64,000 nt of DNA, taken from assembly GCA_963930775.1 (NCBI GenBank), contig OZ005689.1:27912044-27976043 (forward strand), written 5' to 3'. Of the stretch, positions 1,965-59,587 are shown in pieces. Each line of letters opens with the position of its first letter. The first letter of the stretch is position 1. Below the pieces are notes generated by a model. It was not told the origin of the DNA. It saw nothing but the letters and a program-made list of their open reading frames with translations, and made no database searches. The DNA is from Cliona cf. orientalis (lineage: Eukaryota > Porifera > Demospongiae > Clionaida > Clionaidae). A program made the translations under genes and the position numbers.

Positions 1965-4536
1965 TTGCTTGATAGTAACAATATGCCAATAGTGAAGAAA
2001 GGACGTCGTCGCCATCATTATAGGCCGAAATGTGCAGAACGTAAATGGCAAAAGAGAAGGAAACAGACACCACTTCAGATAATTACCAATATCTTGGACT
2101 CGGATAAAGACCTTATCACGTTGCCTCATTCAAATGCAAACAATAAAGAAACCACTACTACTTCTGGTTCACCAATTCAAGCGGAACAAAATCAACATCC
2201 AGCTACAACTGAAATTCAGGGAGCCACACAAACAGCTGCTGAAACAAGCAGCTCTCAGGAGAACATTACATCAAACCAGCGAGACCACCCCTGTTCTCAA
2301 TTTGATCGTGTGAAGGCGGAATTATCACAGTCACTATCCGGATGGCATTTGTATACAGATAATGATACTATACAGCTGTCTTTAATTTCCAATGCACCTC
2401 CAGAGCCTAGTGTTGTCCAAATGACCCTGACAATACATAAAACTTTGCAGTGGGATATTTGTGTGCACGGAAAGCTTCTATCACCATCACATGCCATTAT
2501 CTGTAAACACCCTGACTTCATTCAATCTGGACAAGATGTCCAAAGTGTATGCATGGATCTGCAGGAAGCAATTCCCTGTGAAGGGAATGGTGACCAGGAA
2601 TTTATCGACTTGTTGGTGAGTAGAGGAGGAGTGGTTACAAATCATGGATCGACAACAGCATACCTAGACCAGACAAACAATACTGTTCACCATAGTGACT
2701 GTGACCTCTGTGATGGAAAAAGTAAATGTGGCATTTGTCAAAAGTACAGGTCCACACTTCGTGCTATGAGATCTAGAAAAGAGTCGACTACAATAAATTA
2801 AAAAATAAGAAAAGGATGAGGTGGCACCCTCTAATGATTCGTTTTGCACTCAATTTAAGATATTTGTCATCTACAGCGTATCGTTCAGTGGGCAATTTCA
2901 TAGCGTTACCTTCTCAGCGAACCTTGCAGGACTATACCCATGTCTTAAAATTTGATGCTGGCATGAGCGAAGAGGTAGTGAAGCGATTGAAAGAGGATAT
3001 GAATTTTGATGAGTGTTCCTCATCACAGAAAAAGGTTACAGTATCAATGGATGAGATGAAGATTAAAAGCGGACTCGTATTTAACAAGTCTACTGGAAAG
3101 CTAGTCGGATTCGTAAATCTTGGAGACAACAGAGATTTAGAAGCCTTGAAATCAACACTGAATGAAGAAAATCCTCATCCTAAGCAACCAGAATTAGCTG
3201 ATAGTATGTTAGTTATGATGGTACGTCCAATATTCAAACCCACATTCACATTTCCTGTAGCACAGTATCCGACCACAAGTTTGTCAGGAGAGAAACTCTA
3301 TCCAATTGTGTGGGATGTTATTGAAGCCTTAGAATTGAACGATATTCAAGTTCATGCTGTTTCCTGTGATGGACTGTCGGCAAACAGAAAATTCTTCCGC
3401 ATTTCAATGGATCCGGATAAGACCTTGAAAATTCCATTCAAGACTATAAATCCTTTTGATCATGATCGTTCAGTTTATTTTTTTGCGATGTCCCTCCTCT
3501 CCTGAAAACCACAAGGAACTGTTTTAGCAACTCATTTGCCCACAGAAATAGTCGAAGTCTGAAAGTAATACCAAGGGTTTATAGACTCCTAAAGGAGAAG
3601 AGGGCATGCACATAGTAGGCACCAGGAAAAATTCATAATTATCTAGGCTAAAATAGTACAAATCTTCAATAGCCTATATAGCCATAGTAGAGTCCAGACA
3701 GCAGCTGTTACTATAATTAGTGACTGTTACAAACCACTAAATTTGGCAGTTACACATTCCCTTGGGGGTAGCCCTTAGTAGCAGTTACCATGGTAACATA
3801 ATTTTCAACCCTTAATTATCTCTTTGCCACTAGGCTATAATATTACGCTCAATAAATAAATATTGTCACAAATTCTGTACAGAAAAATGGCAAGTACATC
3901 AGTTGGAAACATGTCCAGGATGTTTACGAAAGAGATAGGTCATCTCCTCACCTGGGTATTGCTCTCTGTCCCAAGATTACCAAGCAGCATATACCATTTT
4001 CTAAAATGAGAGTCTATTTAGCTGCACAGGTACACTGTAGCTATAATACTATGTAATCATTATGATGTAATGATACTTGCTATACACAGGTCATGAGTTC
4101 ATCTATGGCCGATGCACTTACCTTTTACGATCAAGATGAGACAACAGAGACTAGGGTGTTCATACGGATGGTTGATCAATTTTTTGACTGTATGAACGTA
4201 AGGAGCAAACTGGAGGGAAAGCTTAGAAGGAAAGATCAAAGACTGCCCTACACCAGCTCCAATGATCATCGATTCAAGGTATTTACTCACCATAATTATT
4301 ATTATGTTAAAACAATACATTTAACCAAATTGCTACGAACACATACATTATTATACTAGTGGCTCAAGGAATCATTCTTGCAGTATCTTGATGACTGGAA
4401 AGCTGAAATAGCTGCACTTTCAGTCGATAAAAACTTGAAACCATGTATGCAGCTGAGCACAAGGGCTTATCAAGCCGTGAACCGGCAAATGATTTGGCCG
4501 TATACTCCGAGTTTGTTCGATGGCTGTTTTGTATGA
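1965..4536 (+). pseudogene. P-element-type (THAP9-like) transposase, decayed
   Basis: Would catalyse cut-and-paste transposition of the surrounding element in the nucleus. The first block (1965-2801) is basic at its start and has a cysteine cluster near its end (CDLCDGKSKCGICQKY). The second (2816 to about 3560) matches the P/THAP9 catalytic region: WHPLMIRFALNL, SQRTLQDYTH, an acidic MDEMKI and VSCDGLSANRKFF. Further exons lie at about 3880-4030 (WKHVQDVYERD), 4091-4279 (MADALTFYDQDE, FFDCMNV) and 4362-4536, with AG acceptors and GT donors. Reading frame changes occur near 2802 and in a T run near 3480. No THAP domain is visible upstream, and the usual C-terminal part after the last exon is absent. 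Family call is firm; activity of this copy is unlikely. Confidence 0.85.
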
Positions 4537-21792: not shown

Positions 21793-23283
21793 ACTGGTCG
21801 ACACAAGCAAGTCCCATTATAGTTACTGAATGGTCGAAACAAGCAGGTCCACAAGTACCACTACCACATGATCCCTTAGGACTTTTTTCTCTCTTTTTTG
21901 ACGACAGTCTGGTAAGCCATATTGTGGATGAGACCAACAAGTATGCTGAACAGTCGCTTCAAGGCACAGGTAAAGAGTGGTCTACAATGCAGAAGAGATC
22001 AGGGCATACTTTGGCTTTATGATACTCATGGGTATCAATAGGCTACCAGAGATCAGGGATTACTGGTGTAACAGCGAGTACCTGCACTACTCTCCAATCA
22101 CTGACAGAATCACTAGGGATCAATTTGAGCAAATCACTCGATATTTGCACTTTGCAGATAATGATACCCTGCCAGCGAGAGGAGAAGGTTATTCTAGGCT
22201 CCAAAAAGTAGACCCTGTCATCTCTACTCTCAAAGAGAATTTTCAAGCGGTATACTACCCTAACCGTGAAGTAAGTATCGACGAGGCCATGATCCCATTC
22301 AAAGGTCGGTCCTCCATGAAACAGTACGTACCCCTAAAACCAGTCAAGCGTGGTTTCAAGGTGTGGGCAATGGCCGATTCTTTGAATGGGTACCTTTACA
22401 ATTTCAACGTATATACTGGGGCCAGTGGGGGTGATAGAGAGACAGGATTGGGGGAAAAGGTTGTGTTACAGTTAGCGGAGTCAATCAAAGGTAACAATCA
22501 CCACCTATACTTTGATAACTACTTCTCCTCAATAAGTCTGCTATCAAAGCTTTTGGAAGATGGTACATATGCATGTGGAACCATACGTACCAATCGGAAG
22601 CAGTATCCCACCGAGATCAGTGATGAGGCCAAACGATTTGACTGTGGTCAGTCCACCTTCCGCCAGTGACTGCCTGGAAGGATAATAAAGCAGTGAATGT
22701 GGTATCCACACTAGCTAGTCCTACTGACATTACCTTAGTAAATAGACGTCAGAAGGATGGGACAAGGGTGGCAGTTGAGTGCCCCTTGTGTATAGCCCTG
22801 TACAACCAGTACATGGGGGGCGTTGATGTGGGGGATCAGCTAAGGGGGTACTATCATGTCCGTCTGAAGTGTACCAAGAACTACAAGTATATATTTTGGT
22901 TCTTGGTTGATGTGTCCATCACGAATGCCTTCATCCTGTACTCGTTTGATGTTCAGACAGGAACTCCGATGACACTCAAACAGTTCAGGATGAAGTTGGC
23001 CGAGCAGCTCATAGGGACCTGTAAGTCAAGAAAGCGTATAGGCCGACCACGGAAACGCCCTTGCCCTACCTCCAACCCCAACCCTAACCCCACCAGTCAA
23101 ACAGTTCACCTACCTACTCACTCCAGCAGCAGTGTACGTTGTGTGTACTGCAGGCAGGTACGCTCCCCTCCACGTCGGAAGCACACAGTGTGGGTTTGTG
23201 CTGACTGTGATGGCAGCCCTCCACTTTGCCTCACAGGCAAAAACGATGGCAGTGACTGCTTTAGACTCTGGTACCAGCAATAG
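21793..23283 (+). pseudogene. piggyBac 1 transposase, main body
   Basis: After an acceptor (CTAACTACAG) the frame reads WSTQASPIIVTEWSKQAG, then PLGLFSLFFDDSLVSHIVDE and TNKYAEQSL, a typical piggyBac start of the DDE region. There is a frame change near 21,975. The catalytic core has VSIDEAMIPFKGRSSMKQYV, LYFDNYFSS and, after a frame change near 22,665, YMGGVDVGDQLRGYY; these supply the three aspartates. The C-terminus has a cysteine-rich zinc finger (RCVYCRQVR, WVCADCDGSPPLCL). It is a cut-and-paste transposase for TTAA sites. The N-terminal exons lie 14 kb upstream. With two frame changes this copy is probably dead. Confidence 0.9.
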
Positions 23284-29944: not shown

Positions 29945-32900
29945 TCATGTCTTATCTTGTATTGTTCAAGCGCATGATTATTATTATTCGCGGATGCAGC
30001 CTATGGAGGTGTCGAAGGAGCTAGCCAGGGGACGTGTGCTACCAAAGCAGCCGCTCAACAGGCTCCACCTTATGATGGCTGCTCAACTTGGGAAGCCTAC
30101 AGAACCCAGTTCGAGATGCTAGCACGAGTGAATGGCTGGAACGAGATGGAGAAGGCCACCTACCTAGCTGTCCGCCTAATAGGCCCAGCATTGACAGTGC
30201 TAAGCAATATTCCTCGTGATAATCTGTATAATTACTCTTCGCTTATTACAGCTCTTGAGGCCCGGTTTGGGTTTGCACATCAACCGGAGCTCCACCAAAT
30301 TAAGTTGAAAAACCAGACTAGAAAGAGAGAGGAGAGTTTGGCAGAGTGAACAATGTCAAACAGGTTTCCTGTGATGACATTAAACAGTGTTTACAAGAAT
30401 GTCTAAAAGATTGTTTCCACAGAAGGAATCCCAGGGGAGACAGAGAAGGTCGGCTGGAGGTCCCCAAAAGAAGAGAAGGGTGATCAAAGGGAACTGCTGG
30501 TCATGTGGGAAGCCTGGTCACATGCAACAGGACTGTCCAGAACCGGAGAAGCAGCCCTCGGCCCAGCCTTCCAACCATTAGCAGGGAAACGGCCAATAGC
30601 CAGGCTTGAGGGGCTAGGGAAACTGATGCCCCTAGCAAGTGTACAAAACCGGATTTGGACTGGGAGCTTCTTGTGGATTGGTGACTCCAGGATCAGTTGG
30701 AGGTAATAGCTGTATACTGACAGTGGATACAGGAAGCAACATCTCCATTGTGCACCCCCGAGATACTCCAGCGCTCATCGATCAGAGCAACTATTCAGCC
30801 GGTAGGTAGAAAGTCAGCTCCGCACTGTGACTGGAGAGACAGCTCCAATTCTGGGAAGGAGTACTACACATTGGAACCAAACAAGTGCCTCTTTAACAAC
30901 CTCGAGTGACTAAGCTGGCCTGTTGCAGATGCTACACCACTACTCCTATCACCATACCATACCATACCATACCACCTTCTTCTGAAATAATTGTGCCTAC
31001 TAAAGTAGAGACTGAATGGATTAGATGGGCAGTACTCCAACCTGAGGAGACTGAGACCACACTCACACACAGAGGTATACTGGTTGGTAGGACCCTCGTT
31101 GATTTATAAAGAGGGGACATACCTGTGTGGTTGATGAACTTGTCCCAAAAGCCACAGCACATTCAGAGAGGAACTCCACTTGCTACCTACAAGCCGGTGC
31201 TGAGTGTAGTGCAAACGGTGGTGGAACCCGCCCTAACTAATGTGAGTCTGTCTGATTCCCTTCCACCCCATGTGAGGGTGCTGTATGAGAGAGCAGCACC
31301 CCATCTCTTTCTACACCAAAGGCAATGGTTGCATGTATTCCTTGTTGCTTGACTATGTCAATATTTTTTTGCAGGGGCCGCAAGATTTGGGACAAACCGA
31401 TTTGGTTAAGCACATCAATGTGGGCGATGCACAGCCAGTACGGCAAGCACCAAGAAGACTGCCATCTGCCAAGCGAGAAGAAGCACAGAAGGCTGTTGAA
31501 GATATGGCGGAACAAGGACTCATCAAACCACCCCACAGACCTTGGTCTTCTCCCGTGGTACTTGTGAAAAAGAAATATGGGTCTCTCCGCTTTTGTGTGG
31601 ATTACTGCCAGCTGAACTACGTAACTCGCAAGGACTCGTATCCTCTGCCATGGGTGGATGACGCCCTAGTGGCCTTGGCTGGCATGAAATGGTTCTCCAC
31701 ACTTGATCTTCGGAGTGGGTATTGGCAGATGAAACTGGATGAAATGTCCAAGGAGAAGACTGCCTTTTCAACCGGGAGTGGCGTCTGGCAATTCAGGGTC
31801 AGGCCATTTGACCTGTGCGATGCCCCTGCCACATTTGAGAGGTTGATGGAGCAAGTGCTGGCAGATTTTCCATGGAGAGTGGCCATGGTGTACATTGATG
31901 ACATCCTGGTGTCAGGTGGTACCTTTTGAAGAGCATCTGGCCAATCTAAGGACGGTGTTTGAGCAATTGAGAGTAGCCAAGCTGAAGTTGTCGCCTGGCA
32001 AATGCAACCTCTTCCAGCCGAAAGTTGGTTACCTGGCCACATCCTCCGCGCAGATCGGATCTCTATCGATCCGAGGAAGATAGAAGCAGTCAGTACATAG
32101 CAACCCACCCACAAGTCTCTCTGAGCTCCAGAGCTTTCTTGGACTCTGTTCCTACTACCGGAGGTTTATCACATCCTTTGCGGAGATAGCTAAGCCACTG
32201 CACAATCTGCTGGAAAATAAGCGAATGTTTGAGTGGTCACAGAAGGAGCAACAAGCATTTCAAGAATTAAAGGATCGATTGATTAGTGAGAGCTCCCATA
32301 CTGGGTTACCCGCTACCGGATGCCCCTCTCATTTTGGACACAGATGCCAGCAACCAGGCTGTCGGAGCTATTCTGTCGCAATTTCAAGATGGACAGGAGC
32401 AAGTTATTGCCTATTATAGTCAAACCTTGAGTCGCCCACAGAAGCAATATTGCATTTCTAGACGGGAGCTGGTGGCTGTCATAAATGCTGTACAGCACTT
32501 CCATCACTATCTTTACGGTCAGCATTTCACTGTGAGGACACACCATGCTGCTCTGAAGTGGCTGCTCAGCTTCCGAAATCCTGAAGGGCAGATTGCACGC
32601 TGGATTCAGAGATTACAGGAATATGATTTTGAAATTGAACACCACTCTGGACTAAAATACAACAATGTGGATGCTTTATCCAGACGCCCTTGCCTGTAAG
32701 CACTGTGATCGTCAAGAAACCAAGGAAAGACTGGCCACCCTTGATCAAGTTCCCACTACAAATGACGAAAAGATTGAACCAAAAGCCGGTACAGTGAGCC
32801 TAACCCCAGCAGAATCTGCATCCACCATTTACATGAGTCAGTATTCACAAATCAAACAAGAACAATGCAAGATCCGGATATGAAACCAATCCTAGAGTGG

Positions 32901-34560
32901 AAAGAAAAGTCAGTTGAAAGGCCAAAGTGGTCGGCAGTATCCTCCTATTCTCCAACAACCAAATACTACTACTGGTCACAATGGAAGAGCCTGAAAATAA
33001 TGAATGGAGTCCTGCATTAACTCTGGGAAAGCCCCTCTGGTGATAGAGTGGTACCTCAACTTGTTCTTCCGAAATAGATGAGAAAGGAAGTGTTTATGCA
33101 GTTACACAGCACTCCTACAGCAGGCCATTTAGAGGCCACTTGGGACTAAACGAGACCAGATCGGATCAGGCAAAGATTCTATTGGCCACACTGTCTCCAA
33201 GATGTGAAAGATTGGTGCAAAATTTGTGATCTGTGTGCATCTCGCCGGGGGCCCCCCAGGAAACAGAGGGCTCCAATGCATCAGTATAGTGTGGGGGCAC
33301 CAGCTGAAAGGATCGCACTCAACTTGCTTGGCCCACTACCAACCACCGAATCAGGAAATAAGTATGTCCTGCTGGTCGCCGATTACTTCACCAAGTGGCC
33401 AGAAGCATACTTGCTGCCAAACCAGGAAGCCGTAACGGTTGCCGAAGTCTTGGTGAAGGAGTACATCTGCTGCTTCGGAGTTCCATTAGAGATCCACTCC
33501 GATCAAGGCCGAAATTTTGAGAGCAACGTCTTTCAAGAAATGTGCTCACTCCTAGGAATCAGATAAACCCGGACCACTCCGCTTCACCCTCAGTCCGACG
33601 GTATGGTGGAAAGGATAAATAGGACATTGGAAGCACAACTGTCAAAGTTTGTAGACGAGCACCGGCGTAATTGGGACCAGTACATACCTCTTCTAATGAT
33701 GGCGTTGAGATCAGCAACACACAAGACAACTAAATGCTCTCCAGCCATGCTACAGTTTGGCCACGACTTGCGGCAACCGGTCGACTTACTCCTTGGAAGA
33801 TCAGAAGAACCAGTAACTACCACTGATTACTGTGAGCTTCTACAAGAGCGGCTGGAGCAAGTTCACCGCTACGCCGGGGAGAATTTAAAGATCTCGACGG
33901 CTCGGGCGAAGAATTACTATGACCTGCATGCAGATGACGTCACATTCAAGGAAGGTGATGCAGTGTGGCTACACAACCCCTGCAAGAAGGTAGGACATTC
34001 CCCTAAATTGATGCGCCCCTGGGAGGGACCCTACACAATCGTTAAAGTCCTCAATGATGTTGTATACCAAATTCAGCTAACAATAAGAAGCAAAGCTTAA
34101 GTAGTGCACAGGAACCGGCTTTGAAAGTATTCTGGAGCCACCCCACCAAGCTGGTTCTCAAGTACACAACCCTCAAATCCATCCAACAGGGAGGAGCCCA
34201 ATGAAGAATCATCGGCTGAGAGCGCTCAAACTAACCTACCCTACCCGAACAAGAAGGCTCAAGGGAAACAACTGTGTTGCAGTACTCGGGAGAGAAAAGC
34301 TGTCGAACGATTTCAAGCACAAGAATGTGGCATCTTGGGACAAGACACACCTAAGAAGGGGGCAGTGTAACGGACTACCATATTAGGAATGGTCACCCTA
34401 GAGATGTTATTCCATAACAAATTAGCATTCACCAATTGTTAGCCCTTAAACATGTTTTGTGTACGTCTTGTCTGTTGTCTGTAACCCCCTAATGTGCTGT
34501 GTTTAAAGCCCTGTGAAACTGCCAGATTAAGATTCATTTCCAGTGATATTTCTGCAGTGT
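29945..34560 (+). mobile_element. Fossil Gypsy/Ty3-type LTR retrotransposon
   Basis: Parts in order: a capsid-like gag stretch (about 30,000-30,350), a CCHC zinc knuckle (about 30,500-30,540), an aspartic-protease-like stretch (about 30,720), reverse transcriptase (about 31,390-32,110), RNase H (about 32,220-32,700) and integrase with its zinc-binding head (about 33,120-34,100). A purine-rich tract (AAGAAGGGGGCAG) precedes a probable 3' LTR starting TGTAACGG at 34,375. Only one LTR is recognisable. The copy is broken, with roughly ten disruptions, and looks old. It lies between the MULE and the hAT fossil. Confidence 0.88.
34375..34560 (+). repeat. Probable 3' LTR of the Gypsy fossil
   Basis: Begins TGTAACGG right after a polypurine-like tract. 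The right limit is uncertain because no second LTR is present for comparison; hAT coding sequence begins near 34,565. Confidence 0.55.
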
Positions 34561-35240: not shown

Positions 35241-37603
35241 TGTGCGATAATTTTTTTGTGTGTGGTAGGCTTTGAAGCAACTATCTGGACACAGAACTGG
35301 GTTGTCAGGACATGTAGCACACTGATAGTGAGTTAAATGCCTAGGACCATTCTCTCTGTCACTGCAGACAACACAGTCACGTCTCTTCCTTCCTTTCTGA
35401 GGGTAATGACGTACAGGCTGAAGGCGCTCGAGGTGGTGTGATGCTCTTGGACCTCGCCTAGCACTGGTGGAGGCACTGCTGCGGATTGGCTCGGACAGGC
35501 TCTCAATCAGCTTCCTCCGAAAAGCCAAGTGAGTGATGGGTCTCTCTCTTCTTCTGGCCAACTCCTTATAAATAATATAGGCGTTGATAACCATCACCTC
35601 CAACAGCCAGAAGATTTTTCACTACCATTTCACTGACTTGTGGAGGAAGCTGTAGTATGCCATCAGCTGATCTAACTTGTCCACCCCCAACATGAACTGG
35701 TTCTAGTCAGCGATAACCGCTGGCTTTTCTTGGACTTCTCCACGCCTAGAGAAAAGAATAAGGTATGTGAGATCATGTATTGTAATGTTTACCAAGCCAG
35801 TAGTCATTATTTGAATTTACCTTGTCCGAACCTGTGTTCATGAAGCATTATGCTTTGTTGATAACATCAAAACCTTTCTTTTGTCCAACCAGGACAGAGC
35901 AAGGATGTTGCCGGATCGAGCGGCACGTATGTTTTCTTGGGGTTCCCTCTTCCTCTTGGCGGTCACATCCTTTGGCATGCCCCTCCTGTTGGACTGCACT
36001 GTACCTGTGACTGTGATGCCCACCTTGGTCAGCTCACTGTGGAGGAGAGGACTCGTGTAGAACCGGTCCACATAGAGATCGTATCCCTTGTTGTGGAACG
36101 GCTCCATCAGTGTTTGCACCACCCGAACAGTGTGAGGATTGTCATTATCGATGAGCTGAGTCTCCCTGCCATAGTACACGCACACACGCTGAAGGTATCC
36201 CATCTTACTATCTGATAGTACAAATGCTTTGATACCCCAGGGGTGTGGCTTTCCCTTCAGGTACTGGCGAAAGGAGACTCTACCTTTGAAATTGATGACA
36301 CTCTCATCGACTGTGATCTGTCTGTCGGGTGTGAAGGTGGCCTCAAACACTGGACAGAGACGACCAAGCAGAGGCTGGATCTTGCTGCGCTTGGTGGTGC
36401 CAACTGGATCTCCCACATACAGCATACCAAAGATCTGGAAAAATTGATCTCTGGAGAAGACAGAGCGGAAGAAGGGAAAGTTGGTAGTGTCGTCTGTGCT
36501 CCAATAATCCTTCGGGTTAGTCAGCTGCACTATCCCCATGTTGAGCACAACAGCAACGAAGCCCTTCATCTCCTCCACTGTTACAGGTCTCCAGTTCCTG
36601 TATAGCGACCGGCTTGAGATAGTCATGGTGGCGAGCTAGTTTGTGGTGTATGTGTTGGTGGTGTCAACTAGGTACTGGAGCAAGGTGTCATCAAAGAAGA
36701 GGAAGAAGCAGTCCTCTGGAGTCTGACAGGATGGTGGTACCTTGGGGCCTGGTTGCTCTGTGAATGGCTGGGCGGCTGGAGCAGTGTCATCTACATTCAA
36801 AGAATCATACAGGTTAGTTGATGGCTAGCCAATTTTATGTACATGTATAATAATTATTATGTACATGTACATGTACATGTACATGTACATGCATGTATGT
36901 CTAGGTGATTCTTATCTGGAGATTATTCACTCTACTTTTGCATGTACATACACATACTACGTGAACCTGTTCCTGTTCTCTATGCTCTGGTTCTAAACAT
37001 GAACGTTCGGAATAAATCGGTGCGTACGTACTTAGGCAAAATAAAGAAAGGGTTTATAGGTATATGTATGAGCATGTACAAGTAGAATGAGCAAAGGTTA
37101 TACACAACTGTATGTAAAGTTGAGTGGTGGTCTACTTTTACATGTATATACAACTAGTCGGGGGGGGGGGGGGCGGTGAGTTTTGATGCCTTTTTGTTAT
37201 ACATACCATACCTTCTCCAACTGTTGTCCAAACATACAGGTTGGTGCTGCTGGAGCCTGTACCTGCTCTCCCTCGTCTGCTAGTTGCTCCTCTGCCCCCT
37301 CTCCCTCTTCTCACTCCTGGTCTTCCCCTACCCCGTCCTCTCCCTCTCGCTCTGCCACGCCCATTGGTGCTCACATCGTCTCTGGAGCCATCCCTGTCAC
37401 CCCCAGAGGCTCCTCCAAGGCTTAAAGAGGAGTCACCATCACTAGCTGTAGTAGCATCACTGTCATCTAGGCTGGCATCATCCTCACTACTATTGCTATT
37501 GTCACTCTCTGATTAATTGTACATACTGTCTTCACTTTCAGCTTCAGTATCAAAGTCTGACAAACAGTCAGCTACCTGGTCAGCGTCAAACAGCCTTGGC
37601 ATG
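35241..37603 (-). pseudogene. piggyBac 2 transposase, decayed
   Basis: The N-terminal part (from the ATG at 37,603, MPRLFDADQVADCLSDFDTE) is acidic, then a glycine/arginine-rich stretch (RGRARGRGRGRGRPGVRRGR) near 37,270-37,370. The core at 36,626-35,838 has TISSRSLYRNWRPVTVEEMK, VDESVINFKGRVSFRQYL, GYDLYVDRFYTS. The third acidic motif GVDKLDQLMAYYSFL lies near 35,690-35,650, followed by two adjacent stops near 35,620. The C-terminal zinc finger (RRDCVVCSDREN, QCATCPDNPVLC) ends at about 35,241. A stop also falls in the N-terminal part near 37,512 unless spliced out. The three aspartate motifs are present but the stops make activity unlikely. Confidence 0.85.
36838..36896. repeat. Palindromic ACATGT microsatellite
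   Basis: ACATGTACATGTACATG repeats with a flanking TAATAATTATTATG; every unit is self-complementary, so the tract can form cruciforms. It lies in a non-coding part of piggyBac 2. Confidence 0.85.
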
Positions 37604-51272: not shown

Positions 51273-53800
51273 TGTAGGCTAGATGGGTAACTAAATCTAG
51301 ACTCTACTTTCTTGATCTCAATAATAATTATCTGAATGTCAACACGTGCTAAGTCATGCACACACAGAAATCACGTGCAGGATACAAAGAGTATAGATAA
51401 GACCACAAAAATGATAATAATAAGAAATTGCTACATAATCCCCCCCCCCCCCCCCCCCCCCCCAGTGAGTGAAAGGAATGATAGAAAAGTTATGTGAAAG
51501 AAATTGTACGACTAAGGCGATCAGGTAACTGTACATGTCGTCCAGACATGGTGTGGGTGAGTGGGGGAAGTGTGGGGGTGCCAGGGTGTGACTGTGATGA
51601 GGGAATATGAGGTTGGTATGATGATGATGAGGAATGAGATTGTTCAATGTGAGTGTCCGGTGATACCATTGAATAGGCAGGTTTCAAGCGATCAATAGAA
51701 ACTGTATCTGTTCGACCATCATTACGAGCGATAACAAAATGCCGTGTTTTGCGGTCAACCACCTTAAACAGTCCATTATACGTCGGCTGAAGAGGTGGTT
51801 TCTTAGCATCATTTCTAACAAACACGTGTGCAGTCCGTCAAATTTTTGTGAACAAAATTAATGTAGGATTGCTAGAAGGTGAACGAGGTTGCTGATATTG
51901 GAGTTGATTCATGAGGTCTTTTAATGTGTCGACATATGAGAGTAGGTCACTGGGAATGTCAGAGGGTGTGGAAATAAACAACTCACCAGGAAGTCTGAGG
52001 ATGGTTCCATAAACCATAAACCATTTCCGCTGTATAGCATTTGAGATTGTCTTTGACAGCTGTTCTTATTCCCAGGAGTACCAGTGGCAGGGATTCTGTC
52101 CAGAGGTGGGGATTGCAAGAATATTTGAGCGTTGTCTTAAGTTGACGGTGGAACTGCTCGACCATACCATTTGCGGCAGGGTGGTATGCTGTAGTGCATT
52201 GTTGATGAATTCCCAGGAGTTGAGTCAGGAGTGACCATAGGTGAGATTCGAACTGGCTGCCCCTATCCGTGATGATGGTGGATGGGACTCCAAATCGTGC
52301 TATCCATCCGGATACTAGTGCTCGTGCGAAAGTTTCTGCAGAAATGTCTTTGATTGGAAATGCTTCAGGCCAGCAGATGAAACTATCTACCTACACAGGT
52401 GAGAAGATACCTGTAGCCTTGTGAGAGAGGAAGTGGACCAACCAGGTCGATGTGCACCACATCAAAACGATTATAAGGTGGTTTGAATGACAAAACTGGA
52501 GCATTGGTATGTCTGATGACTTTCGTTTGCTGGCATTGTAGGCAAGATTTGGTCCACTGATTGATATGTTTGTTCATGTTGGGCAAGACGAAACAAGCAC
52601 TGATCAGCTGTCTGGTAGCATGAGTACCAGGATGTGAAAGCGAGTGGAGTGTTGTAAATACAAGCTTGCGTAGCTATTCTGGGATGAAGGGTCGAGGAGT
52701 GCTTGTTGAAGTGTCACAAAGTAAGAGGGGACCACCAGTATCGAGGGTGTAGGGTGTAATTTGGAGAGATGAAGTTTGCAGATTGGCTAGCAATTGCTGC
52801 AATTCAGGGTCTGTTAGTTGAGCTTTAGCCATGAGGTGGAAATCTATGACTGGTGAGGAATTATGAGTGAGTGCGTTTGCTTCTATGCATGACAAGGCAT
52901 CTGCGACACTGTTGTCAACACCGCGTATGTGTCGTAGATCGGTAGTGAACTGGGAGATGAAATCTAAGTGACGACACTGTTGAGGGGAATGGCGGTCTGG
53001 ACAGGCATTGAAAGCAAACGTCAATGGTTTGTGGTCCGTGATCACATGAAAGATTCTCGACCTTTGAGGAAGTATTGGAAATGCTTGATGGATAAATAAA
53101 CGGCTAGGAGTGCTATATCGTCTTTCAAAGGGTGTCATTTTCTTAAAAAAAAGAGATTGGCTGCCATTGCCCATTAACGTACTGTTGAAGTACTGCCCCA
53201 ATAGCGGAATCTGAGGCATCGGTTGTGAAGCTCGTGAGGGCGTTCGGCGTTGGATGTACGAGCAAGGTTGCCTCTGCGAGGGCTGTCTTTATGCTGATAA
53301 AGGCTTGAGTAGAGGTATTGTCCCACGTGAGGCGTTCTGTAGTAGATGTCAGAAGCGAGTTGAGCGGTTCGAGAATCTTAGCACAACCATGTATGAAACG
53401 GTGATAAAAATTAATGAGGCCGAGAAATGTTTATAGTTGGCGGCGTGATTGTGGTTGAGGGAAATCAAGAACAGCTTGCACCTTTGATGGGAGGGGGTGG
53501 ATACCGTTGCTGTCTACCAAATGTCCCAAGAAATGGACACTGGATGCGCCAAATACGCATTTTTGCGGATTGATGATCAAACCATAGTGGGCTAGTCGTT
53601 CGAAAACGAGTCGAATATGATGTTGATGTTCCTCTGCGGATGCACTAGCAACCAGAATATCATCGCTGTAGATGTAAGAAAAGTCGAGTCCACGTAACAC
53701 CAGGTCCATAAATCGTTGGAACGTTTGCGCTGCATTCTTTAACCCGAAAGGCATACGGACAAATTCGAAAAGTCCGAACAGGGTATTGATAGCAGTTATC
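51273..53800 (-). mobile_element. Fossil Gypsy-type LTR element, pol and 3' LTR piece (inverted)
   Basis: Reading on the minus strand: reverse transcriptase (about 53,800-53,430), RNase H (about 53,220-52,900), integrase zinc head and core (about 52,590-51,980), an integrase tail (about 51,830-51,640), a long G tract in polypurine position (51,439-51,464) and an LTR (51,435-51,273) that matches the LTR at 48,383. The orientation is opposite to the 5' piece. Broken, with several disruptions; the two LTRs are clearly diverged, so it is not recent. Confidence 0.85.
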
Positions 53801-53900
53801 AACCATGCATCAAACTCAATCTTCTGAAAAAATCCCATACGAAGGATTTTCCCAAATCCAGTCACATGTGACCGTATTTGGAAAAACCTGGCATGCATGC
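53798..53900. repeat. Two family A ends, head to head
   Basis: A roughly 66-bp left end on the minus strand (ending GTCAC at 53,865) meets another left-end-like sequence on the plus strand starting GTGACCGTATTTGG at 53,868. The junction is palindromic (CCAGTCACATGTGACCG). The minus-strand end runs directly into the retroelement pol piece. Confidence 0.75.
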
Positions 53901-54427
53901 ATGTCGCAAAAATCTTGAAAATCGTGATTGCGCACCTGCATGATTCTATTGGTCATGACCTAGCAGCCGCTCGATTTTGGAAGCGATCGCCCTTACAGTT
54001 TTTCAGATATGACGCGTTTAGTTCACCCAAGTCCACTATATTGGAATCGAGAAAATATGATCTGAAGACGTTGCTACGGAGATGGGTGGGGTGTCCTTAT
54101 ACTTCCGCGTCACACACGTACGATTTGCAAAAAATCAGCTGACACATACATGAGCTACAAGGAGTGGAATATTGGAGAAGAAAGAGCCAGGTAAGAGCTA
54201 ACGTAGACTTTTTAGTAAAATCGAGTATTTGGGGGAAGTGCCTGAGGTGATCTAGGCCTTGATTAATGCCTTCTTTTACACGATTTTGATAGGATACAGT
54301 CATTAAAACGTACATGTAGCTATGCTTGCTAACCACCCTTGACTTATATATCCCCCTTGCATTCATGGAGGGGTATTAATAATTATTTACACAATGCATG
54401 GCAAGACGAACAATAAAATAAATTAAA
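53901..54427. other. No gene recognised
   Basis: Between the family A junction and the 3' end of the DUF7869-type gene. No domain or repeat recognised; probably 3' flank of that gene. Confidence 0.4.
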
Positions 54428-54949
54428 TTAATCACCATGCTTCCTTCTTTTAGGCATTGGTGGGGTTGCGTCCTCGACAGGCTCAGGGCAAACTATGTCT
54501 TGGCAATCTCGCAGACAAAACACCCGTATCTTTTCGAAAAGATACTTTCTCCTTTCCATGGAAAGCCCAGGTGGAGGAACTATTGGAGGAAGCTCCTTTA
54601 TGGCTGGTTGCCATCCCGAGTCTCTCAGCAGGCTTATCTCCCTCTCCTGCGAGTCCACGGAGTTCTTCACAAAGGCTTTCCCAAAGTATTGCTTGAAAAA
54701 CCTCATGTGGTGCATCACCTTGATCCCTTTGAAAGCATTATGCTTAAAGGGAGGCTTTCATATAAAAATCAAAAATTATGATTTCGAGCCAGTATGGCTT
54801 ATCAAGGGTGCTGATTCTAAAAAATCCAGAGACTGTATAATGCGCATCGTTTTGCATGCAGCTATGCGCTATTGAAGTGCATTTCCGCGGTGGGCGGGGC
54901 GTTTATGTGACGTCAGAGTGAGAACGCCTAACGCGAGCACAGTATACAC

Positions 54950-55745
54950 ATGGAGGAAGCCTACAGCTCGGGCTCGGATAGGAGCGACGTTTCTGTAGGC
55001 TCTGACGTTCATAGCAGCTCATTCAGCCTTCAATATTCTGAATCTTCATTTGAAGATGCGTCTTTGGGAGAGTCAGATCCTGAGTCTGGAAGCCGAATTG
55101 AGCCGTACCTGTATGAGCCTGAGGACAGTGAAGGAGAGAGTAGTGTTACAGGTCCTGGTGGTACCGATGGAGAGGATGATGATTCAGCAAGAGAACGCCT
55201 CGATAATACTGACTGGTAAGCGTAGATAATAGTTTTTGACAAAAAATAATGTCTGGAATATCATGCCTTTAGGTGTCAATGTGGCAACTGTGTGACAATG
55301 CCTACACCAGTCGAGTACACATGCTGTATGGAAATAGAAGCCGTTTCGAATAAAATAGCATCGTTTGCATCAGAAACTGACAGTGATAGTGTTTCTATCC
55401 ACTGTATCACAGAGCATGAGGGATTTGATGCTGTTTGCCTTAATCCCTGGGTATTACAAACTGGATTCTTCTCTTATCGGGAGAGATATGGAACCAGAGA
55501 CATTCGAGACACACCTCAGAATGAGTAAGCAAAACATCATCATAATATTCCTGCTGGATTTACAATAATCTCTCACATATTATACAGGCAATACCGTTTT
55601 ATAGCATACCGGCAGGTAACCAGCAGGTGTTGGGTTGGCTTGGTCGTCGAGTTAGAGTCACCCTGCCAAGTTGTAAAATTAGAACAAAGTACCCATCACC
55701 AGATGGGAACTATATTGGTTTCAAATATCCACCATTACCCACTTG
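54950..55745 (+). CDS. P2X7 ballast-domain-like protein (P2RX7_C), transposon cargo
   Basis: Three exons: 54,950-55,216, 55,273-55,526 and 55,589-55,745, joined by GTAAGC donors and AG acceptors; the join gives NEQYRFIAYRQ in frame. The N-terminal exon is acidic and serine-rich. Exon 2 opens with CQCGNCVTMPTPVEYTCC, close to CQCGRC in human P2X7, then CITEHEGFDAVCLNPWVLQT. Exon 3 ends LPSCKIRTKYPSPDGNYIGF, matching the P2X7 tail (LPSC..., GQYSGFKSPY). In P2X7 this cytoplasmic domain binds zinc and guanine nucleotide; no channel part exists here. Stand-alone ballast-type proteins are known in invertebrates. No stop or frame change seen, so it may be functional. It starts about 15 bp inside the left terminal repeat. 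Role in transposition unknown. Confidence 0.85.
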
Positions 55746-55854
55746 ATTCTTATAAACTTATCTTGTGTTAGAAACAAGATATTATTGACTGTCATAAGAT
55801 TCACAACAAAAATTAATCACTATTATGTGTCGGACAGGAGTATGCTTATAGATT

Positions 55855-58716
55855 GAATCTGCTCTTATGACGTTGGATGGCCTCTTGCTTGTCAGGTCTC
55901 TCGTACTGGCTACTGAGAGGTAGAGGTATGCTCTGTGGGTCAGTCTCCTCAACAATATGCTCTCTACATCTTCGCATTGTCTCCAACATCAGATGATCAG
56001 CATACTCTGCATGGACCGGTTAATTAGCATCAAAATTAATGTTGTCCCAGAAACAATAATAGTTAACTTACTAAAATTAATGTGGGGTCAACCTTTACTC
56101 TCTTCACAATATAGCCACCAGCTTTGTATTTGGGGAACAGCACATCAAATCTTTCTTTACCCTCCAATGTAGTAGCTTGTTCTCGATTTGCATTTTCGTT
56201 AAAATGTAGGATTGCAATCTGCACTCTATAACACAGTAGATCAATAATCGTCAATTAATCATGATAATTTTGGTTCTAACCTGCTGTTCATCACTGGATA
56301 ATAAAATCCTTTCATCTTAGGGGCAAAATGGTTGAGAACACTGTGAAAGGATTCTAGTGACGACGTCTGGTGTATAGGTGAAAATCTACGGATAGCTTTG
56401 AAAGATTTTTGTCTGAAATCAGAGCTGATAAAGCTTCACTTGGCTTAGTATCTAAGCGAAACACAAGCATCATGAACAAGTCTGCATATGTTCCCATAAT
56501 GCTAAAACCTACGTCTTTTGAACCACTTTCTCTGACTTACACGACCATGAACACATTGATGGAACTTGGGTGAGTCATGCTTGTGCTTGTTGTGTACATG
56601 ATTGTCGAGTGACAACCACTTCGCCAAGACTGTATCACCATCTCCATCCTCAGTTGAAGCCACACACCAATAGAGATGGCTCAAAATGGTCCTTTGCCAA
56701 TCTCTAAGAGAGCAGTCCTTTTTTTTGCAGCAGCTAAGTTTTTACAAAAACCTGAGGTATAAAAATACAGCATAAATAAATTTACATTATATTGGCTGTA
56801 TTTGATGTGTGCACACACTCTCGATCATTGGTAATAGTCACATACATATTTGTACTTGTTATCAGGGAAACTGCATGTTAGACCTCTGTACGAATATTAT
56901 TATACCTTTAGCCACATGTCAAAGTAATGAGTAATCGATGGGTAAGCTTCTTTAAGCCACTTATTAATCTGCGAGTATATGTCCGTCACAAGGGTGTCCA
57001 CAGTAAGCTTGTGTTCATCCATAAACTTCAGTACCCTCTGGAATCCTATCTCCATGTGGTAACTACCCTTGACCTCAGAACTCTATAGTAGACAATAAGA
57101 TAATATAGTTTGAAGTAAATTGTGTCTACTGATGATAAATATTATTATGTTAGTACATGTAATGATAGATGTGTTAATTACATTACACACCTGGACTAGT
57201 TTGAAGTCTATAATCTTGTTGCAGGACATCTCCAAGATTGAGTAGGTTCCATATTTGGCACTATGTCCAGGGCTGTTGGCTCTGCCATCCCCAGCAAGTA
57301 CCAAATGCTGATTGCTAAGACTGGAAATTACCGCAGTATGTTTTAATTCGTGCACAGAAGAAACGGTAGCTAGTAGGTAATCCCGTTGATGCCGGAAGTA
57401 AGTGTCGGTTGATATTGTTTCACACTTTAAGAAAGTCAATACTCGAATCACTTTGGTTGGTGTAGCACCAGCATAGAGTATGGCAGCGGACAGCTGAATA
57501 TTGCCAGCAGGAATCTTCCTGATCACAGGCTGGCTGGACCAAATGCACTTGTAACTACAGCTCAAGCACAGCTGTTTTATACGTAGGTAAGTACCTATAT
57601 CAACTTTGTGTAGTTTGACTGCCTTGCTACCACATTGCCTGCAAACAGCAAACAAGAGCATTAACATGGTATCAAACACGATGTAGCATTGATTAGGGTT
57701 GCTATCATGGAAGGATGAAGACTCAGCTCTGAAACGTAGAATTATTATAATAGACAAGATATAAGATTGCATGATGTGGACCACAAACTTACGATGAGCT
57801 TCAACAGTATAGCCACTTGTGTCAAGATCACCAGGCTGATCATAGCTGCATTGGGACATTTCCGATTCAGATTCCTCTGAGATACCTTGGAAGATAGAAG
57901 CAGATGAGAGGAGAGAACACTGTACACCTGTGTTTGTGAGTGATTTATCATCACCAAAGTAACATTGAATTCCTACTGAACGGACACTAGGACTGACTTG
58001 AGACCCTATTAGAAAGTATCTATAATAATGGTAATAGAAACCAGAAAATTTGCAAATGATTATGACTATACCCGTTGTTTTTGTCCTGACTTGTGTCTGT
58101 ATACGTACATTTTCTTTCTTGGGAAAAATCATGACCTGTGTACCAGCATCACATTGAGTACAGGCAGGAACTGCTGATACACTGGGTGATGGCGGCAAAT
58201 CCTGATCACATTCAGGCTGAAGCAGTTCATTCACAATCTACTGCATGTGTGCGGCTAGTCAAATCAGTATGTGTGAATAAATACAATTGACTTGCCGTAA
58301 GTCTCTCTCTTCTCAAAAGCCATTCTCTTCTTTGGTAGACCGTCTGTTTCAACAGTAGATGAGCTTGCCTGTGCCCTTTTGTGGGCAGTAGTTGACGGAG
58401 TTTCACCGCTGCTGCTGCCTGACTCTTGACCAGCGGTATCTTTAGCGATCCCATGCCTCACAAACACTGTTGGTACAGCATCAGGCTTCAATCTCCTTCT
58501 CTTCTTTAGGCCCATTTGTTCAGCTAGCATTGAGTCTACTTCAAAACAGTCTACTTCAAAATGTTCACTGCACAAAACACTGGTGTCGGTGGTGCTCCAT
58601 CGTTCTCTAGTCCTCTGGACTTGCTTCTCCCATTTCCACCTGAGCTCAGGGTCTTTGGGGAACTTGTGCATGCTAATACTATTAGAGCACCCAGCAGCAA
58701 CACAGTGTCTCCCCAT
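55855..58716 (-). CDS. THAP-domain Kolobok-like transposase
   Basis: Start at 58,716 (MGRHCVAAGCSNSISMHKFP); an upstream ATG in the same frame exists, but the THAP fold begins here. THAP zinc finger: CVAAGC, W in ELRWKWEKQV, CSEHF (residues about 4-65). Later exons: about 58,240-58,070; 58,008-57,795; 57,728-57,190 (RQCGSKAVKLHKVD, AILYAGATPTKVIRVL, LVLAGDGRANSPGHSAKYGT); 57,080-56,905 (YHMEIGFQRVLKF, TDIYSQINKWLKEAYP); about 56,740-56,540 (SHLYWCVASTEDGDGDT); about 56,460-56,280 (HQTSSLESFHSVLNHFAPK); 56,230-56,065 (ILHFNENANREQATT); and a last exon near 56,010-55,855. The aspartates in AGDGRA and VTDIY fit the RNase-H-like core. Exon 1 appears to use a GC donor (ACG|GCAAGT). I saw no clear disabling change, so it may be intact. 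Convergent with the ballast-like gene; the 3' ends lie about 110 bp apart. Confidence 0.83.
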
Positions 58717-59587
58717 AGTACCACAAAATCTCCAAGTTTTCACCTTCATTCGATGCTCAGCACAGAAACTGGAGAATGTGTCGCGACCACGCGTTCTCAC
58801 TCTGATGTCATGTAAACACCCCGCCCACCGCGGAAGTGCATTTCAATAGCGCATAGCTGCATGCAATACGATGCGCATTATTCAGTCTCACGATTTTTTT
58901 ATAAATTCTGAGAGTATTTTTTCTGGAATCAGCACCCTTGATAGGCCATCCTGGCTCCAAAACATAATTTTTTTTTATTTTTACATGAAAGCCTCCCTTT
59001 AAAGAAGGGATCGAAGTAACCTGCCCAGTCGTACGTGGGCACGATAACTGTACCATCATGAGCCCCAACGAGCTGGGCGTGGTTCACCTCCGCAGACTCC
59101 TCCACCACTCTGACGATGTCAAGATAACCCACTCTTCTGCGTCGAAACGCTCTCTTCAGCAGACCAAAGCACCAATCTGGAGCAAATTTGGTATGCCCCA
59201 TAATCAGAAATGATACACTGATGCTATTATTGCGGCCAACCATCACCCTCCACGCAAGATACTGCATCATGTATCGATTTTTATTCTGACCGGAACAGTT
59301 GTCTGCGTGGAGAGTGAGGTCAGATTCCCCTAAGCTATGGTGCTCCAAATAATGGTGAAGCATACTGATTATGCTATTAGCAGTGTTGACGGCCTCGTCA
59401 ATTAAGTAGTTAACCTGTGGGAGATAATTTTGTCCTTAAAGTCATTGGCTATGTTTGTGTATGTGTCCATGCTTTCCTAAATATAGCCCACCCATAGTAC
59501 CGTATTTCCTCGAGCAGACACCACGGCGACTATTCGAGGGCGGCGACAAAAACCGTCATAGTAGTAGAACTGCATACAAGAAGTATA

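Follow-up and report, generated by a model that had tools for sequence, protein, structure and literature searches.

The closest described relatives of the element analyzed here are the Kol0-lineage Kolobok transposons of Kojima and Bao (2022; PMC9587614). According to the passages of that article used here, these elements encode a second protein, KolX, that matches positions 476-595 of P2X7; their hosts are vertebrates, annelids, cnidarians, and sponges; Kolobok termini are 5'-RR and YY-3'; P2X7 originated when a P2X4-like gene and KolX became fused; and Nanor is suggested to be a domesticated KolX. Rump et al. (2020; PMC7016195), in the portions drawn on, found the same domain in a sponge and mention an Ixodes protein whose N-terminal domain appears in print as "TAHP"; we take this to be THAP. 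The main text contains no word starting with "transpos." A Xenopus study (PMC6004289, likewise used in part) states that Kolobok transposases usually possess a THAP domain. Here we analyzed a stretch of 64,000 nucleotides from the sponge Cliona cf. orientalis (contig OZ005689.1, positions 27,912,044 to 27,976,043), referred to below as the window. At window positions 54748-58998, directly bounded by TTAA on both sides, lies an element that, taken as a whole, is very probably a DNA transposon of the Kolobok superfamily, now decayed and of the Kol0-like kind that carries KolX. Our data demonstrate its anatomy, its insertion at TTAA, the breakage of both of its genes, the genome-wide pairing of the two genes, and selection on the P2X7-like (ballast) domain. 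The element resembles the published Kol0/KolX elements in its TTAA target, RR/YY termini, DDE transposase, and P2X7-like second protein; unlike them, as far as those passages go, the window copy is dead and its KolX gene has three predicted exons and an acidic N terminus. The exon structure, the gene order, and a cysteine-rich N terminus of KolX are not described in those passages. Since Kojima and Bao had already reported the KolX-P2X7 match, the finding is a rediscovery: the link between P2X7, KolX, and Kolobok dates from that 2022 publication and is supported by this genome. What is added is a count of gene pairs across the whole genome and a test for selection.

The KolX gene of the window copy lies on the plus strand, within the inverted ends of the element and convergent with the transposase gene. 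Its three-exon model, with splice sites judged by eye, comprises an acidic, serine-rich exon 1 that has no Pfam match (54950..55215), exon 2 with CQCGNC, CC, and HCIT (55273..55524), and exon 3 with AYRQ...LPSC...GNYIGFKYP (55588..55746). Compared with a second copy of the family, L004, exon 3 carries a 1-nucleotide gap after 55631 and a 9-nucleotide gap after 55673, and it therefore exits the homologous frame ahead of LPSC. Exons 2 and 3 resemble the P2X7 ballast. Scored singly, they reached 13.3 and 18 bits (E values of 0.077 and 0.0029), below the Pfam cutoff; joined into a read-through with one X placed at the frameshift, they passed the P2RX7_C profile (PF20478) with 38.7 bits against a cutoff of 23.5 (E value of 1.3e-9). 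A Protein Data Bank (PDB) search with the read-through retrieved P2X7 sequences at 0.0016, 0.0019, and 0.009. The ballast has seven zinc-binding cysteines (PMC9587614, in the passages used), and by eye all seven are present in the read-through, in C-x-C-x-x-C, CC, HCIT, and LPSC. The window KolX shares with the P2X7 ballast the zinc-cysteine pattern and the LPSC...GFK end, and a KolX relative shares the predicted fold; the ballast domain of KolX and the cytoplasmic tail of vertebrate P2X7 are homologous. Unlike P2X7, the window KolX has no channel part; in this it is like Nanor and the stand-alone ZCD proteins, which in the cited portions of PMC7016195 are ballast proteins without a channel, and unlike them its gene is located inside a transposon.

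We then determined how often the two genes occur together in the genome. Ballast loci were compiled from 25 places found with the PF20478 profile and 21 places found with window exon 2, which matches 20 genome places besides its own; merging gave 33 loci. Transposase searches yielded 38 matches with the window query and 31 with the L063 query, and all 38 window-query matches plus the 6 L063-query matches outside them were merged into a set that likewise comprised 33 loci. A transposase was present within 7 kb at 29 of the 33 ballast loci, and a ballast gene within 7 kb at 29 of the 33 transposase loci, so the gene whose presence in other copies the earlier note had proposed to check is indeed found there, and nothing in this count refutes the note. 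All 29 pairs, including that of the window, were tail-to-tail; 28 lay within 3.6 kb of each other, and one was at 6.4 kb. The 7-kb limit was chosen after the second table had been seen; an initial count, restricted to 6 kb and a single query per gene, gave 20/25. The chance expectation, given 29 transposase loci, is approximately 0.16% per locus. These numbers bear on the alternative of a host origin for the ballast gene, which a single Kolobok copy would have picked up or landed beside by chance. In its favor, the portions of PMC7016195 drawn on describe the domain as an ancient animal gene that stands alone and whose linkage to two markers extends across animals; however, the pairing of 29/33 ballast loci, all tail-to-tail, far exceeds chance, and in the window element the ballast gene sits between the inverted ends. 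We consider this alternative negligible, and the pairing count rules it out in this genome. Ballast genes lacking a transposase were found at C1 32.70 Mb, C1 33.50 Mb, C17 3.32 Mb, and C9 5.16 Mb. The two on C1 are 93.3% (L019 to L005) and 96.7% (L017 to L009) identical to relatives that do possess a transposase. Transposases lacking a ballast gene were found at C1 12.27, 26.18, and 27.29 Mb and at C11 4.61 Mb. More than half of the ballast loci (18/33) are on C1.

The codon comparison covered 7 intronless ballast domains and 13 third exons, corresponding to 20 of the 25 PF20478 loci; L007, L008, L017, L018, and L019 were left out as near-duplicates or broken. Between subfamilies, synonymous change was saturated and nonsynonymous change was low, which indicates that selection preserved the KolX protein during the divergence of the families. 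Ratios for close pairs were 0.12 (L005/L011), 0.18 (L014/L016), 0.14 (L023/L027), and 0.28 (both L020/L022 and L022/L029). Selection on KolX would be expected of something that the element needs. The intronless subtype comprises L005, L006, and L009-L013, and L006, L010, and L013 of this subtype have a cysteine-rich N terminus. A structure model of a KolX relative, not of the window protein, has the same predicted fold as the P2X7 ballast. The profile and structure searches that the earlier note had asked for thus both gave a match to the ballast, the latter as a prediction for the relative.

The transposase gene is on the minus strand. It starts with a THAP-domain exon (58264..58716; PF05485, 2.8e-19) that begins with MGRHCVAAGC, followed by a 384-amino-acid open frame with the first D in GDGR (57083..58237), whose Mutator-like match is weak and under the cutoff (PF20700, 0.00062). 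The second D (TDIY) is in the frame at 56900..57082, the interval from DxxH to E corresponds to 56502..56741, and the last catalytic E (LESFHSVLNHFAPK) is in the frame at 56259..56435. An exon-like open frame on the 3' side of the gene (55782..55988) has no Pfam match and an uncertain role. Relative to L004, the window transposase has three frameshifting gaps, namely, 7 nucleotides after 56918, which deletes the H of DxxH, 4 nucleotides after 56726, and 1 nucleotide after 56400, which precedes the catalytic E and shifts its frame; in addition, TDRH of L004 is TDIY in the window. The motifs GDGR, TDRH, D.WH, and LE.FHS are common to L004 and relatives such as L036, L038, and L042, and these four loci have the DDD/E residues with C/DxxH between the second D and E that characterize Kolobok transposases, whereas in the window copy DxxH is gone and E is out of frame.

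L004 (C1 10.978 Mb) is 93.6% identical to the window element over 3,687 bp and was the only close copy among the matches listed; a DNA search with the left end gave at least three genome matches, two of which were the window element's own ends. In L004, KolX exon 3 is open, and exon 1 contains a stop and, compared with the window, an insertion of 5 nucleotides. The transposase frame of L004 also contains a stop, and the right part of the element, including the front of the THAP exon, is missing. Both copies of this family are thus damaged. The earlier note had correctly read the structure, the ends, the THAP domain, and a convergent three-exon ballast gene with CQCGNC and LPSC...GNYIGF, and its Kolobok assignment and ballast homology stand; its statement that the transposase has no obvious defect does not, and the ballast gene is not intact either, exon 3 being frameshifted.

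The ends conform to those of Kolobok elements. The TTAA duplications described in the earlier note are at 54744..54747 and 58999..59002. The left inverted repeat (54748..54927, plus strand) starts with AGGGAGGC and the right one (58792..58998, minus strand) ends with GCCTCCCT, so that the element reads AG...CT. The repeats, also described before, align with 155 of 172 ungapped columns identical and a local score of 121.5; among 293 random pairings of 200-base segments from the window, no score exceeded 27.5. A 25-nucleotide stretch of the right end is missing from the left end of the window element and present in the left end of L004. TTAA, AG termini, THAP, and DDE are also found in the Xenopus Kolobok XKol (PMC6004289); the main text of that paper nowhere mentions KolX by name. 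The reading frame into which the element inserted matches DUF7869 (5.4e-14) and occupies 58932-59435 and 54428-54757 of the window on the minus strand. This target is itself repeated, with at least 41 genome matches, the window's own included. We joined the two flanks and compared them with nine DUF7869 loci: seven paralogues lacking the element are continuous across the insertion point, with TTAA in two (L072 and L074) and TTGA in five (L071, L073, L075, L076, and L079), and for L077 and L078 no alignment spanned it. The uninterrupted paralogues therefore show the insertion directly. Left ends at TTAA with differing flanks were seen at L006, L007, L008, L009, L017, L020, and L029; that of L022 is at ATAA. 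Among the DUF7869 matches listed, 39/41 are on C1, at approximately 16.3-35.3 Mb of its 37.5 Mb, and the distal half of C1 looks transposon-rich.

Several points weigh against the interpretation as a Kol0-like element with a selected, P2X7-like KolX. (i) Copies of the same family are not independent within the pairing count. (ii) In the PDB search, two unrelated chains (0.34 and 0.47) outrank the fourth P2X7 sequence (0.5). (iii) Two close pairs, L020/L029 (0 synonymous and 4 nonsynonymous changes) and L021/L026 (0 and 1), show no selection, with tiny numbers. (iv) The sixth zinc cysteine of P2X7 is replaced by NHE in 5/7 intronless domains (L005 and L010-L013; by eye); L006 and L009 retain it. 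(v) The structure model of the relative is weak, with a mean predicted local distance difference test (pLDDT) score of 55.7; residues 201-320 score 56-85 per 10-residue block.

In live relatives, the THAP domain would bind the element ends and the DDE/DxxH domain would perform cut-and-paste at TTAA. KolX would be a zinc-stabilized accessory protein that the element produces to aid its own movement, most likely a nuclear cofactor that binds DNA or the transposase; the suggestion in the earlier note that the protein may serve the transposon holds up. Accessory transposon proteins can also be repressors, and KolX may instead be a regulator that damps transposase activity or protects the element against its host. 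The findings reported here fit helper and regulator alike, as does the retention of KolX in nearly identical, and therefore young, copies; we regard the regulator as a possible, rather unlikely, explanation. Less probable still is that KolX senses guanine nucleotides as the P2X7 tail does. Its predicted fold is the same, the equivalent of rat R546 is kept in 7/7 intronless domains and 12/13 third exons, and that of R578 in 5/7 and 13/13, respectively (by eye). For KolX as an accessory protein, we tentatively propose a two-part zinc protein with a variable N-terminal module and a conserved ballast core, the latter gripping the transposase or DNA ends; the ballast would then be a transposition module that predates P2X7 and was reused in the channel. 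Equally tentatively, in the intronless subtype the N-terminal module might consist of CXC-like cysteine clusters, and in the window subtype of an acidic tail.

P2X channels were searched exon by exon with PF00864, which gives a lower bound: at least 24 genome matches, at C10 (approximately 213-228 kb) and C2 (4.61-4.62 Mb). None of the matches listed is near a ballast locus, the closest being C2 4.156 Mb, approximately 455 kb away, and no P2X7-type fusion of channel and ballast is visible among them; KolX itself has no channel domain in the same gene. The C10 matches cluster on a single strand and probably represent several tandem gene copies, with stops in some frames. A literature search for P2RX7_C together with transposon found nothing.

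The window contains further mobile-element remains. Transposase frames at 21974-23283 and 35838-36635 match PF13843 (1.9e-67 and 1.5e-58), and we take them to be of the piggyBac type. KolX-like genes are reported in a few piggyBac families (PMC9587614, in the passages used); the genome-wide P2RX7_C search listed no match near these frames. A P-element-like transposase frame is at 2777-3505 (PF21787, 3e-23), and the domain search gave no match for the adjoining open frame at 1911-2801. Retroelement fragments with reverse transcriptase and an integrase tail are at 31276-31929, 33567-34100, and 52674-53952.

Taken together, these data are an independent whole-genome test of the published claim: nearly all ballast domains found in this genome belong to Kolobok elements and are under selection there. 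That mobile elements could be the source of the domain, as the earlier note proposed, is the published view (PMC9587614, in the passages used). The location of the ballast in Kolobok and of the P2X channel matches elsewhere is consistent with a transposon having supplied the regulatory tail to an ion channel that is a drug target, and the open KolX copies make the role of KolX in transposition testable.
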